Below are positions 18,537-35,254 of a DNA stretch of 52,458 nt, in pieces; position 1 is the stretch's first letter; each line of letters begins with the position of its first letter. This stretch comes from Pelagibius sp. (GTDB taxonomy: Bacteria; Pseudomonadota; Alphaproteobacteria; Kiloniellales; Kiloniellaceae), in the NCBI RefSeq assembly GCF_028289705.1, contig NZ_JANQOI010000070.1:1-52458 (forward strand), in the 5' to 3' direction. The position numbers and the translations under genes were made by a program. A model generated the notes under the pieces. It was not told the DNA's origin and did not search any database. It was given only the letters and a program-made list of their open reading frames with translations.

Positions 18537-19295
18537 ATGCCTACGCTGGTCCTGGTGCGCCACGGCAAGACGGAATGGTCGGGCCAGAACCGCTTTGCGG
18601 GTTGGGCCGACGCGCCGCTCAGCACGGGCGGACGCGCCGAAGCGCGGGCCGCCGGCCGCGCCCTCGCGACAGCGGGCCTCGGCTTCGACCTTTGCTGCAC
18701 CTCCTACCTCAGCCGCGCCGCCGAGACCCTGGCCATCATGCTGGCGGTCATGGGCGAAGAGGCGCTGCCGGTGGAGCGGACCTGGCGGCTGAACGAGCGC
18801 CACTACGGGGCGCTGCAGGGTCAGAATCGGGCCAAGATGGCGCTGCAGTACGGCAACGCGCAGGTCGCGCAGTGGCGCCGCAGCTTCACCGCCGAACCGC
18901 CGGCCCTGGCCGAGGGCGACCCGCGGCTGCCCGCCGCGGACCCGCTCTATGCCGAGGTCGAACCCCAACTCCTACCGCGCAGCGAAAGCCTGCAGCAGGC
19001 GGCCGCGCGCGTGGCGCCCTGGTGGCACGAGAGCCTGGCACCGCGCCTGCGCCAGGGACAGAAGGTGCTGGTGGCCGCCCACACCAGCAGCATCCGCGGC
19101 TTGGTGCGTGAACTCGAAGGGCTGGACGGCGAGGCGGCGGCGGCCTTTCGCATCGCCACCGCGGTGCCGCTGGTCTATCGGCTCGATGCCGATCTGGGCG
19201 TCATCGGCCGCGAGGCACTGGCCGGCGGCTGGGGCGGACGCCTGCGCCAGTTCCTCAACAAGCACAAGCCGGGCACCCGAATCTCCTGGGTTTAG
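18537..19295 (+). CDS. gpmA: 2,3-bisphosphoglycerate-dependent phosphoglycerate mutase-like protein
   Basis: This 252-residue histidine phosphatase-fold protein has the dPGM pattern: phosphohistidine motif LVRHGKTEW (H9), FAGWADAPLS, R60 in YLSRAAETL, LNERHYGALQGQNRAKMALQYG (E87) and the second catalytic His in VAAHTSSIRGLV (H182). dPGM interconverts 3- and 2-phosphoglycerate. The usual AHGNSLRAL reads AHTSSIRGL and LQGLNK reads LQGQNR, so activity may differ from housekeeping GpmA. It is the first plus-strand gene of the sphingolipid region, 90 bases ahead of the fatty acid hydroxylase. If the final lipid is ceramide phosphoglycerate, this enzyme could set the phosphoglycerate supply. That link is inference. 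Confidence 0.82.
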   Translation: MPTLVLVRHGKTEWSGQNRFAGWADAPLSTGGRAEARAAGRALATAGLGFDLCCTSYLSRAAETLAIMLAVMGEEALPVERTWRLNERHYGALQGQNRAKMALQYGNAQVAQWRRSFTAEPPALAEGDPRLPAADPLYAEVEPQLLPRSESLQQAAARVAPWWHESLAPRLRQGQKVLVAAHTSSIRGLVRELEGLDGEAAAAFRIATAVPLVYRLDADLGVIGREALAGGWGGRLRQFLNKHKPGTRISWV

Positions 19296-19385
19296 AACGC
19301 TTTGATGGGGGTCGGCTCGGCGTTGATTCTTCGCCTGCGAACTCTTAGGTTTGGGCCGACTCCGGAAACGCTGAAAAGGCAGACG

Positions 19386-20165
19386 ATGGCGCTGTTCGGC
19401 AGAACGCCCTGGTCCGACAGGAAGTACTTTCTCGACAAGATGACCCTGCGGGAGCTGGTCTGGGCTTACGTGACCTATCCGGCCATTCAGGCCTACGGCC
19501 TGTTGAGCCTTGTGGGTCTAGCTGTGGTGATCCAGGGCCTGACCGCCTGGGGTACCAGTGCCTCGGCGCTGGCTGTGGCGGTCGCCGCGACGATCCTCAT
19601 CTACCCCGTGGTCTGGTACCTGCTGCACCGCTTCGTGCTGCACGGGCGCTGGCTCTATCGCTATCCGCAGACCGCGGCCTTGTGGAAGCGCATCCACTTC
19701 GACCATCACCAGGACCCCCACGATCTGGGCGTTCTCTTCGGGGCCCTGTCGACGACGCTGCCGACCATCCTGGCCGTCACCATTCCCCTGGGATGGCTGA
19801 TCGGCGGACCCACGGCGGCGGCGGCGGCGGCGACCACCGGCATCGTCACCACCTGCTTCTACGAGTTCTGCCACTGCATCCAGCACCTGCCCTTCACGCC
19901 GAAGTGGGCCTTTCTGCGGCGCATCAAGCGCCATCATCTGGCCCATCACTTCCACAGCGAGCAGGGCAACTACGGCATCACCAACTTCTTCTGGGACCGG
20001 GTGTTCGGCACCTTCTATCCCGATGCCAAGCAGTTTCCGCGCAGCGAGACGGTCTTCAACCTGGGCTACACCGGGGCGGAGACGGCGCGCTTTCCCTGGG
20101 TCGCGCTGCTGTCCGGCCTCGCCGCCGACGGCAGCCCGGTCCCCCGGCGCGTCCGAAGGGAATGA
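19386..20165 (+). CDS. Fatty acid hydroxylase / sterol desaturase superfamily di-iron membrane enzyme
   Basis: This 259-residue membrane protein has the histidine clusters of integral membrane di-iron hydroxylases: HRFVLH (81-86), HFDHH (104-108), HCIQH (163-167) and HHLAHHFH (183-190), with hydrophobic segments around 27-80 and 120-160. ATG 19386 follows an AAAAGG ribosome site. The frame is open to TTG 19302, but that extension is less protein-like. In eukaryotes relatives hydroxylate the sphingoid base at C4 or the N-acyl chain at C2. Its position next to the ceramide synthase candidate suggests it hydroxylates a sphingolipid chain here (inference). A role on another lipid is possible. Confidence 0.82.
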   Translation: MALFGRTPWSDRKYFLDKMTLRELVWAYVTYPAIQAYGLLSLVGLAVVIQGLTAWGTSASALAVAVAATILIYPVVWYLLHRFVLHGRWLYRYPQTAALWKRIHFDHHQDPHDLGVLFGALSTTLPTILAVTIPLGWLIGGPTAAAAAATTGIVTTCFYEFCHCIQHLPFTPKWAFLRRIKRHHLAHHFHSEQGNYGITNFFWDRVFGTFYPDAKQFPRSETVFNLGYTGAETARFPWVALLSGLAADGSPVPRRVRRE

Positions 20166-33422: not shown

Positions 33423-33469
33423 GGGGAGCTAATCTAGAGCGATCGCGGCGCTCCCCCGCGGTGCGCCGG

Positions 33470-35254
33470 CTATTTGCGCTGTTCTGAGAACGCGGCTCTG
33501 GCCGGGCCCGACTGGCCGACGGCGAGGTTGAGATCGAAGATTTCGCCGGCGATGTAGTCTTCGCGCACGGCCGAGCGGCTCAGCTTGCCGGAGGAGGTGA
33601 ACTTCAGGGTCTTCGGCGGCACCAGGACGACCTGGCAGTCGGCGCCACAGGTCTTGCGCACCGTGGCGACCACCTTCTTGCGCAGGCTCTCGCGGGCGGC
33701 GACATCGTGCAGGCGGCACTGCAGCACCACGATCATCCGTTCGCCCTCGCCGGGCTCGATCACCGAAAAGCAGGCGACATCGCTGGCCCTGACGTCTTCC
33801 AGGGCCTCCACCGCCCACTCGACGTCCTGCGGCCAGATGTTCAAGCCGTTGAGAATGACCAGATCCTTGCGGCGGCCGGTCACGACCAGGCGCCCATCGG
33901 TCATATAGCCGAGATCGCCGGTATCCAGCCAGCCGTCGTCGGTGAAAACCGCCGAGGTCGCCACCGGATCGTTGAAATAGCCGTCCATGACGCTGGGCCC
34001 GCGGACCACGACCCGGCCGATATGATGGTCCGGCAGGGCGACGTTCAGCTCGCTGCGGATCTCCACCTCATGGTCGGGCAGCGGAACGCCGCAGATCACG
34101 AAGGGCCGGGCGGCGCGGCTCGAACCGATGCCGTTGCGCTTCACCGACACCACACTGCCGGTCTGGGCGAAGTGTTCCTGATCGACACGGTCGACCTCCA
34201 CCCCCTGGTCCAGGGGCGTAAAAGTCACGGCAAGGGTGGATTCGGCCAAGCCGTAGCTGGGCAGGAAGGCCTTGGCGGAGAAACCTGTGACCCCGAAGGT
34301 CCCGACGAAGCGATCCAGGATCTCCGCCCGGACCATTTCTCCGCCGATGCCGGCCACCCGCCAGCGGGAGAGGTCGATGGTCTTGGCCGAACCGTTGAGG
34401 CCGCGGCGCACGCAAAGCTCGTAGCCGAAGGTCGGGCTGAAGGAGATGGTGCTGCCATGCTCGGAGATGAGCTTCAGCCAGGTGAGCGGACGCAGCGCGA
34501 AGTTCTTGGTCGCCAGATAATCGATGGTGATCTGGCTCAGCATCGGCGTCAGGCAGAAGCCGACCAGCCCCATGTCGTGATAGAGCGGCAGCCAGGAGGT
34601 GCTGCGGTCGCCCTGGCGCAGGTCCAGGCCGTGCCGGCCGATCCCACGCGCATTGCTGGTAATCGCCTGCTGCGAGACCAGCACGCCGCGCGGCACGCTG
34701 GTGCTGCCGGAGGAGTACTGGATGTAGCAGGCTTCATCGCTGGTGAAGGGCCGGAGTGCGCCCCCCTCAAAGGGCAGGGCGTAAAAGTCCTCCGGCGTTC
34801 CGATCATCTTCAGGGAACCGGCGGCTTCCTTCAGATAGTGGAGCATCTCCGCCGGACCCACCGCGACCTCGGCACCGGCCTTGACGATCATCGACCGCAG
34901 GCGCGTCACATAGGCGTCGTGGCCGCCCAGATGGATGGTCAGCGGCAATGGGACGGGAATCATACCTGCGTATTGGCAGGCGAAGAAAAAGACCAGGAAA
35001 TCCGGGCTCGTCTCGGCAACGATCGCAACCCGGGTCCCGCGCTTCAGCCCGGCCTTGTCGAAGCGCTGTGCCATGGTGACGGCGAGATCGCGAATCTCGC
35101 GGTAGGTCAAGGACTGCCGGAGTTCGCCTTTTCGGCCAAAGAAATTGCATCCCGTCTCACCCCGTGCGGCGTAATCCAATCCTTCGGCCAGCGTGGCGAA
35201 GTCAGAAACGACAAAAGGCAGACTCGTATTCGTGGATGCCGTTACACCTGGCAT
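33470..35254 (-). CDS. aasR: Fatty-acyl-AMP ligase / acyl-ACP synthetase for the sphingolipid carrier
   Basis: This 594-residue adenylate-forming enzyme of the fatty-acyl-AMP ligase type activates a fatty acid with ATP and should load it on AcpR. It has the P-loop YIQYSSGSTSVPRG (177-190), LPLYHDMGLVG, FLPSYGLAESTLAVTF, LDTGDLGYMTDGRLVVTGRRKDLV and the C-terminal KFTSSGKLSR with the catalytic lysine. ATG 35254 has AGGG 9 bases upstream. As first gene of the minus-strand run aasR-cerR-acpR-spt it probably drives the operon from a promoter in 35255-35520. A polyketide-type FAAL is the alternative, but no polyketide synthase is nearby. Confidence 0.88.
   Translation of the reverse strand: MPGVTASTNTSLPFVVSDFATLAEGLDYAARGETGCNFFGRKGELRQSLTYREIRDLAVTMAQRFDKAGLKRGTRVAIVAETSPDFLVFFFACQYAGMIPVPLPLTIHLGGHDAYVTRLRSMIVKAGAEVAVGPAEMLHYLKEAAGSLKMIGTPEDFYALPFEGGALRPFTSDEACYIQYSSGSTSVPRGVLVSQQAITSNARGIGRHGLDLRQGDRSTSWLPLYHDMGLVGFCLTPMLSQITIDYLATKNFALRPLTWLKLISEHGSTISFSPTFGYELCVRRGLNGSAKTIDLSRWRVAGIGGEMVRAEILDRFVGTFGVTGFSAKAFLPSYGLAESTLAVTFTPLDQGVEVDRVDQEHFAQTGSVVSVKRNGIGSSRAARPFVICGVPLPDHEVEIRSELNVALPDHHIGRVVVRGPSVMDGYFNDPVATSAVFTDDGWLDTGDLGYMTDGRLVVTGRRKDLVILNGLNIWPQDVEWAVEALEDVRASDVACFSVIEPGEGERMIVVLQCRLHDVAARESLRKKVVATVRKTCGADCQVVLVPPKTLKFTSSGKLSRSAVREDYIAGEIFDLNLAVGQSGPARAAFSEQRK

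Follow-up and report, generated by a model that had tools for sequence, protein, structure and literature searches.

In Caulobacter crescentus the locus CC_1168-CC_1152 serves the synthesis of ceramide phosphoglycerate (CPG) and CPG2 and, as laid out in PMC11324152, holds five ceramide genes, a kinase (CC_1160), a CDP-diacylglycerol-synthase-like gene (CC_1161), a CDP-alcohol transferase (CC_1159), a phosphoesterase (CC_1158), two nucleotidyltransferases (CC_1153 and CC_1152) and a second LptF/LptG. That paper describes the transfer of sphingolipids from the inner to the outer membrane as not known. PMC12275187 calls lipopolysaccharide (LPS) essential in most Gram-negatives and proposes that a dedicated yet unidentified enzyme may supply phosphoglycerate for CPG2. 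Here we analyse a contig of 52,458 nt from Pelagibius sp. (NZ_JANQOI010000070.1, contig C88; hereafter the window), which belongs to an assembly of 5.41 Mb in 193 contigs with a completeness of 96.93%. It carries the Kiloniellaceae version of the Caulobacter phosphosphingolipid locus, the core of which is already known: four ceramide genes and a candidate for the fifth, the ceramide synthase, are present in much the same order, and family-level counterparts of the other components named above recur.

It is highly probable, judging from the sequence, that we are dealing with a cluster of the Caulobacter CPG2 type, for making and exporting phosphosphingolipids, with an export pair of its own, LptF2/LptG2. 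On a wider scale we consider it fairly probable that several alphaproteobacterial lineages (Fodinicurvata, Aquibaculum, a further genus represented by three genomes, and others) have lost LPS and hold LptF2/LptG2 as their only LptF/LptG, a sphingolipid-dedicated Lpt machine alone supplying the outer leaflet, and that the window shows the two-system starting state, with a mutase recruited for the head group. The basis consists of sequence homology, the linkage of the genes, fold predictions for two proteins, the clean separation of the two LptF/LptG types within the order, and the number of LptF/LptG genes relative to LPS and spt genes; the individual reactions and products are predictions.

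Genes of the locus

A genome scan found at least 533 spt loci, of which 80 were kept; the window proteins were mapped onto them by phmmer and profile searches, and the mapping also covered regions from relatives in the order. Among the loci so found, the closest named relatives by identity of the serine palmitoyltransferase (SPT) are Pelagibius marinus (same genus, G007; 85%) and Kiloniellaceae bacterium Dino_bin46 (84%). An earlier note, made from the sequence alone, had proposed an apparently complete anionic-sphingolipid locus in the window. Pfam and NCBIfam profile matches place the named genes where that note had put them: the minus-strand run spt-acpR-cerR-aasR, the convergent plus-strand genes for a CDP-alcohol phosphotransferase, a lipid kinase and a Tam41-like protein, and the additional mutase, hydroxylase, nucleotidyltransferase (two), metallophosphoesterase, DUF2141, LptF and LptG genes. 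By Pfam, the names HIT, GNAT and Tam41 are weak ones. The set for building acidic sphingolipids is nearly complete in this organism:

18537..19295, plus strand: divergent phosphoglycerate mutase dependent on 2,3-bisphosphoglycerate (2,3-BPG), cluster-bound (TIGR01258 261.3 bits, cut-off 81.7)
19302..20165, plus strand: fatty-acid hydroxylase (PF04116 79.1 bits; 20/80 spt loci)
20249..21451, plus strand: GNAT-type ceramide synthase candidate, bcerS (PF00583 20.4 bits, cut-off 20.7)
21448..22275, plus strand: NTP1, CC_1153-like MobA-type nucleotidyltransferase (PF12804 50.9 bits; best solved match by profile 2dpw, 4e-39)
22258..23256, minus strand: NTP2, cpgD-like cytidylyltransferase (PF12804 44.7 bits; start uncertain, domain from about 23031)
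23180..24169, plus strand: metallophosphoesterase, probable CC_1158 counterpart (PF00149 52.5 bits; 35/40 loci of the head-group comparison)
24075..24641, minus strand: DUF2141 protein (PF09912 105.1 bits)
24769..25227, plus strand: HIT-like protein (PF01230 E 0.034 only; co-occurrence with cpgA/cpgD)
25279..26496, plus strand: LptF2, sphingolipid-type (PF03739 221.1 bits; tree)
26493..27578, plus strand: LptG2, sphingolipid-type (PF03739 153.9 bits; tree); a start at 26328 was listed first, and 26493 is likelier from the translation
27749..28957, plus strand: cpgA-like CDP-alcohol phosphotransferase with an N-terminal cytidylyltransferase-like domain
28954..29940, plus strand: cpgB-like ceramide kinase candidate (PF00781 55.6 bits; profile matches in 37/80 spt loci)
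29946..30857, plus strand: cpgC-like Tam41-fold nucleotidyltransferase
30874..32088, minus strand: spt, serine palmitoyltransferase (NF047599 638.3 bits, cut-off 500; solved SPTs up to 457 bits)
32093..32344, minus strand: acpR, dedicated acyl carrier protein (PF00550 40.9 bits; profile match in 80/80 spt loci)
32454..33422, minus strand: cerR-like short-chain dehydrogenase/epimerase, ceramide reductase candidate (PF01370 95 bits; 43% to Caulobacter sp. L132)
33470..35254, minus strand: aasR, fatty acyl-AMP/ACP ligase (NF006624 744.7 bits, cut-off 600; 47% to Caulobacter sp. L132)

At the family level spt is firmly identified, because the sequence passed the NCBIfam serine palmitoyltransferase model (638 against 500), failed the cut-offs of related families, and scored higher against solved SPTs (457 to 275 bits) than against the best KBL (228 bits). 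Assignments as BioF (324 bits, cut-off 426) and as glycine C-acetyltransferase (309 bits, cut-off 460) were rejected. Grouping with 8-amino-7-oxononanoate synthase enzymes, which the earlier note had named as speaking against its proposal, was not seen for spt, as judged by family profiles rather than phylogeny. The aasR product exceeded the fatty acyl-AMP ligase cut-off (745 against 600), and spt, acpR, cerR and aasR are present together as in the Caulobacter-type CPG/CPG2 locus. The GNAT gene, its domain narrowly below the Pfam cut-off (20.4 against 20.7), is 48% identical to a Phenylobacterium gene between LptG2 and NTP1, the position of CC_1154, which was not itself the query. The hydroxylase may act in sphingolipid hydroxylation.

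Alphaproteobacteria, Gammaproteobacteria, Nitrospirota and other groups also have this gene set around spt, with gaps. The Phenylobacterium locus (L110) runs Tam41-like gene, kinase, cpgA, metallophosphoesterase, DUF2141, HIT, LptF2, LptG2, GNAT and NTP1, which matches the Caulobacter order published in PMC11324152; in Caulobacter sp. L132, only aasR, cerR, acp and spt lie in the examined stretch. The six leftmost window genes tested had no match at the 80 spt loci; of the eight right-hand genes, seven matched 0 or 1 locus and the eighth, a generic ABC ATPase (MalK), matched 20, one strongly. The cluster is not a chance assembly: many unrelated genomes have its genes near spt again, while the tested end genes, MalK apart, are found there once at most. 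The suggestion that the additional genes belong to the pathway gained support for NTP1, NTP2, the metallophosphoesterase, the HIT-like gene and LptF2/LptG2, all recurrent around spt, and, within the genus, for the mutase.

LptF/LptG types and LPS genes

The order was surveyed in 58 genomes, that of the window (G000) included. LpxC was matched in 44 of them and spt in 25 at E 1e-100, of which 24 exceeded the cut-off. LpxB, searched in 19 genomes, was not found in G023, G026, G029, G030, G032, G037, G038, G041, G045, G051 and G055; it was matched in G011, G050 and six control relatives, and the missing LpxC of G011 and G050 is therefore probably a gap. Genomes without LpxC and LpxB are called LPS-less below, and G000 was counted as LPS-bearing.

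In 36 of the 40 genomes that were at least 95% complete, the number of LptF/LptG genes was exactly two for LPS plus two for spt. The misfits are G026 (LPS-less, without spt, two genes), G029 (three, the third below the family cut-off), G034 (three where two were expected) and G039 (three where four were expected). Below 95% completeness the fit is looser; G049 and G052, for example, hold spt and LpxC with no LptF/LptG match. All eight LPS-less genomes with spt have a single pair, of the sphingolipid type only (split over two contigs in G045), which lies beside spt in seven and, in G029, with other sphingolipid genes on another contig. In G030 (81% complete) the cluster is present with no spt on its short contig. 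At 95% completeness spt occurred in 8/9 LPS-less versus 10/31 other genomes (Fisher, p = 0.0055), and over all 58 genomes in 8/11 versus 17/47 (Fisher, p = 0.042), both uncorrected for relatedness.

Within the order, the cluster pair and the LPS pair have different ancestries. In the LptF tree, 18 LPS-type rows fell on one side of a branch (100/99), and 10 rows from LPS-less genomes stood among the order's sphingolipid-type rows; the type label was assigned at a profile score of 220, in agreement with gene neighbourhood. The LptG tree (FastTree, with a long-branch warning) gave the same split within the order.

For a wider check we chose 50 of the 80 named spt genomes, a set given without completeness values, and matched LpxC in 35. 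By per-genome counts, four or more LptF/LptG genes were present in 28/35 genomes with LpxC versus 2/15 without (Fisher, p = 1.6e-5). With LpxC, G067, G076, G084, G101 and G102 have two and G069 and G089 three; without it, ten genomes have two, G065, G070 and G098 three, and G092 and G093 four, the missing LpxC of the last two being perhaps a gap. The LpxC-less named genomes include Fodinicurvata fenggangensis, Aquibaculum arenosum, Arboricoccus pini, Thermopetrobacter sp. TC1, Aestuariivirga sp. YIM B02566 and Rhodospirillaceae bacterium R-7; the LpxB search took in two of this set, F. fenggangensis (G038) and A. arenosum (G032). No LptF/LptG was found within the examined stretch of the Arboricoccus and Thermopetrobacter spt loci.

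The second pair might instead serve another lipid, or LPS itself, and stand in the cluster by accident. G026, which keeps a sphingolipid-type pair without LpxC, LpxB or spt (at E 1e-100), fits this idea, as do the five of 35 named genomes with spt and LpxC that have only two LptF/LptG genes. We regard it as highly unlikely, given that the pair tracks spt across the order, that the eight LPS-less spt genomes keep no other type, and that the majority of the 50 named spt genomes show the matching pattern.

A side observation concerns G026 itself (99% complete). Its contig C45 (L153) has the sphingolipid-type pair beside an ELM1 gene, and LpxC, LpxB and spt were not matched in the genome; the pair may export a different lipid there.

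LPS in the window organism

LpxC was not found in the window's own assembly, whereas four control genomes, Caulobacter included, were matched. The same genome has LpxB and its neighbour LpxI near the end of a contig, and four LptF/LptG genes in two pairs, one of the LPS type and one in the sphingolipid cluster; all seven congeners have LpxC. Because LpxB, LpxI and the LPS-type pair are present and LpxC occurs in 7/7 congeners, the organism very probably still makes LPS. Overall, it very probably makes both LPS and sphingolipids. A window organism free of LPS was rejected on the presence of LpxB and LpxI and on the congeners. The idea that it has no lipid A and that anionic sphingolipids replace LPS draws on the LpxC result and is barely credible beside these genes: in an assembly 96.9% complete in 193 contigs, a gap at LpxC, itself not located, is the simpler reading. 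Of the earlier note's wording that acidic ceramides might complement or replace LPS, the first half is plausible and the second is unsupported here by LpxB, LpxI, the LPS-type pair and the congeners. Replacement seems likelier in the related lineages than in the window organism.

Head-group genes

The comparison of head-group genes covered 40 loci that combine kinase and GNAT genes with LptF2 or LptG2; duplicates (L064, L085), partial clusters (L145, L159) and LPS-type loci were left out, with two genomes merged from two contigs. The loci fall into three grades: kinase without Tam41-like gene (4), Tam41-like gene without cpgA (14), and with cpgA (22). NTP1 was present in 32/36 loci with a Tam41-like gene versus 0/4 without. 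NTP2 was present in 15/22 loci with cpgA versus 0/18 without (Fisher, p = 5.9e-6; some loci stop short of NTP2) and the HIT-like gene in 21/22 versus 1/18 (Fisher, p = 3.5e-9), neither test being corrected for relatedness. The co-occurrence of cpgA and NTP2 is what the hand-over from CpgD to CpgA proposed in PMC12275187 predicts. The HIT-like gene goes unmentioned in the main text of PMC11324152; we regard it as a candidate for the cpgA/cpgD branch. LpxC-less genomes were found in all three grades, and cpgA plus NTP2 are therefore seemingly not required for natural LPS loss. The Fodinicurvata cluster has no cpgA, NTP2 or HIT-like gene.

Four loci (L068, L072, L076 and L081) have the kinase but no Tam41-like gene, NTP1, cpgA or NTP2, and possibly belong to ceramide-1-phosphate producers. 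LpxC was not found in the genomes of L068, L072 and L076, the three searched of these four.

The homologs of kinase, Tam41-like gene and cpgA stand in the same order in Phenylobacterium at 32-49% identity (the Caulobacter genes CC_1160, CC_1161 and CC_1159 were not themselves compared), and counterparts of CC_1153, CC_1152 and CC_1158 are present at the family level by profile and solved-structure matches. In gene content and order, the phosphorylated acidic ceramides proposed by the earlier note agree with the Caulobacter CPG/CPG2 locus (PMC11324152), the lipid product itself being a prediction. A different head group derived from a CDP-alcohol (inositol phosphate, choline phosphate or similar) could also be attached by NTP2 and the CDP-alcohol phosphotransferase: the best solved relative of NTP2 is the CTP:phosphocholine cytidylyltransferase 1jyk, its NCBIfam matches include inositol-1-phosphate cytidylyltransferase below the cut-off, and the transferase is closest to inositol-phosphate synthases and AF2299. 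Caulobacter CpgD, however, itself belongs to COG1213, the group with the phosphocholine enzymes (PMC12275187), and the gene neighbourhood is of the CPG2 type with a phosphoglycerate mutase in the cluster, which makes another head group unlikely and a phosphoglycerate one the preferred reading.

PMC11324152 has already proposed CpgC as the activating enzyme, yielding NDP-ceramide, from an InterPro CDP-diacylglycerol-synthase match. Sequence profiles were of limited use for the window's Tam41-like protein: PF09139 gave 30.3 bits (cut-off 24) on the cluster homolog L138 and 13.2 bits on L104, a PDB search with a profile built from 34 homologs turned up no more than a weak nucleotidyltransferase match (E 0.044), and L138 reached Tam41 by sequence only at E 0.24. 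In the predicted fold, 208-224 residues of the window protein aligned to 7ecd, 6ig2 and 6ig4 at 16-20% identity; it has the YGS...D motif, and the KY and RF..P stretches of L138 align with Tam41. The assignment is settled by the fold comparison, which matched where sequence profiles failed, and thus holds for the modelled fold, not by sequence. Tam41 is a phosphatidate cytidylyltransferase, whereas the lipid substrate of the window protein is presumed to be ceramide-1-phosphate.

The cluster-bound phosphoglycerate mutase

The mutase-like protein matched TIGR01258 over nearly its whole length and kept RHG and AH, the histidines of which we take to be catalytic in 2,3-BPG-dependent mutases. In the 58 genomes of the order, that of the window included, TIGR01258 (E 1e-20) was matched in 19. 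Seven of the eight genomes of the genus have one copy, which always shares a contig with spt; in the remaining genome, G006 (86% complete), neither TIGR01258 nor spt was matched. The 2,3-BPG-independent phosphoglycerate mutase (iPGM) is present in all eight, and the cluster mutase is therefore dispensable for glycolysis. G031, from another family, has no iPGM and holds an orthodox copy (362 bits) together with a cluster-linked second copy (228 bits).

The cluster copies are 45-50% identical to the order's five orthodox GpmA-type copies, and all eight cluster copies deviate at four motifs, presumed to bind substrate: WN to WS (WG in G031), FTGW to FAGW, AHGNS to AHTSS, and IPT to IAT. G011 shows a near-identical signature (AHTAS) on a 4 kb contig, and no spt was found in that 87% complete assembly. 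The histidine phosphatase superfamily has many phosphatases among its members, and the protein could instead be a phosphatase acting on a phosphorylated intermediate, either lipid or glycerate, as the four altered motifs would suit. We hold this possible yet doubtful, since the 2,3-BPG-dependent mutase model was matched far over its cut-off (261 against 81.7) and RHG, ERHYG, WRR and the second histidine are retained. We lean towards a mutase that is the candidate phosphoglycerate supplier for CPG2 in this lineage. A role as a universal cluster part was rejected: the gene lies within the flanks of 0/80 spt loci, those of the same-genus loci L060 and L061 stopping before the mutase position, and it is absent from G029, G033 and G036.

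Flanking genes

Left of the cluster, between 8654 and 18375, three genes have homologs near spt elsewhere:

8654..10372, plus strand: ABC exporter with fused membrane domain, possible flippase (PF00664 and PF00005; 22/80 spt loci, 12 strong)
14243..15760, minus strand: GT8-like glycosyltransferase, possible associated module (PF01501 22.9 bits, below the cut-off of 24.3; 8/80 spt loci, 6 strong)
17215..18375, minus strand: ELM1-type protein, possible associated module (PF06258 203.4 bits; 11/80 spt loci matched, 4 strong)

In L089, homologs of all three lie just past aasR. A sphingolipid glycosylation and flipping module is possible, the exporter being a flippase candidate only. Between them, at 10492-14211, an acyltransferase-3/SGNH fusion, a 2-oxoglutarate-oxygenase-like gene (below the cut-off) and an FkbM methyltransferase are of the surface-glycan type, linked to spt in 0, 0 and 1 of 80 loci. 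Further left (931-7604) are a glucose-6-phosphate isomerase (GPI family) and NiFe-hydrogenase-like genes (large subunit, NAD-binding, 4Fe-4S), with spt linkage in 0/80. To the right of aasR (35851-41238), sugar ABC transporter genes and a Gfo/Idh/MocA oxidoreductase are spt-linked only via generic ABC ATPase matches.

Proposed pathway

In the pathway we propose, AasR would load a fatty acid onto AcpR, and SPT would condense the bound fatty acid with serine. The GNAT protein would then N-acylate and CerR reduce the product to (dihydro)ceramide, one chain of which the hydroxylase may modify. The kinase would yield ceramide-1-phosphate, and the Tam41-fold enzyme may activate it with CTP, as Tam41 does phosphatidate, toward ceramide phosphoglycerate. 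NTP2 is predicted to form CDP-glycerate, which the CDP-alcohol phosphotransferase would use to attach a second phosphoglycerate. The cluster mutase, a second enzyme beside the glycolytic iPGM, may supply 2-phosphoglycerate, the preferred substrate of CpgD. LptF2/LptG2 would pass the lipid to an Lpt-type bridge toward the outer membrane, and the system would work alongside LPS in the window organism.

Several points weigh against these readings. Phenylobacterium served as a stand-in, the Caulobacter CC_1152-CC_1161 sequences themselves not being compared, and counterparts of LptC2 (CC_1168) and the flippase CC_1166 were not identified in the window, no query for either having been used. The locus counts are uncorrected for relatedness, and some NTP2 absences may reflect locus ends. 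The HIT gene falls below the Pfam cut-off (PF01230, E 0.034), and the window's Tam41-like protein has no PF09139 match up to E 1. In Caulobacter a CC_1153 mutant still produces CPG, whereas NTP1 here follows the Tam41-like gene and not cpgA, and we assign it no step. G029, G033 and G036 carry cpgA and NTP2 with no TIGR01258 match at E 1e-20; the mutase is therefore accessory. The LptF tree included 17 spt-linked rows of distant named genomes, and 10 of these (Gammaproteobacteria, Nitrospirota, Acidocella, Nitrospirillum and others) stood apart from the order's sphingolipid type on long branches flagged by the program; the tree therefore does not show that the sphingolipid-type LptF of all bacteria arose once.

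The second LptF/LptG type is tied to spt and, where relatives have neither LpxC nor LpxB, is the only pair left; some of these relatives have been cultured, and the pattern offers a natural test of sphingolipid export and LPS replacement. Relatives that are apparently devoid of LPS and keep only this type hint that sphingolipids can assume the role of LPS in nature. Among the titles and abstract starts of open-licence PMC literature, we found no report tying LPS loss to sphingolipid LptF/LptG in these lineages.

Comparison with known systems

Azotobacter vinelandii and Pseudomonas luteola have a single contiguous cluster (PMC11324152), as does the window. The locus L112 has cpgA, LptG2, LptF2, NTP2, NTP1, GNAT, HIT, aasR, cerR, acp and spt; it differs from the window in gene order and in an LptF from a more distant branch, and no mutase, hydroxylase, metallophosphoesterase or DUF2141 gene was found in its examined stretch. 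It comes from Pseudomonas asuensis, which we take to be a relative of P. luteola. Unlike the Caulobacter locus, the window cluster closes with a hydroxylase and a divergent phosphoglycerate mutase, has a HIT-like gene, and is followed on its left by possible glycosyltransferase, ELM1 and ABC-exporter genes. The CpgD authors left the source of phosphoglycerate open (PMC12275187), and the mutase is a concrete candidate for it. Relative to the text of PMC11324152 and PMC12275187, the present analysis adds the mutase bound to the cluster, the link of the HIT-like gene to cpgA/cpgD and, most importantly, the LptF/LptG accounting.

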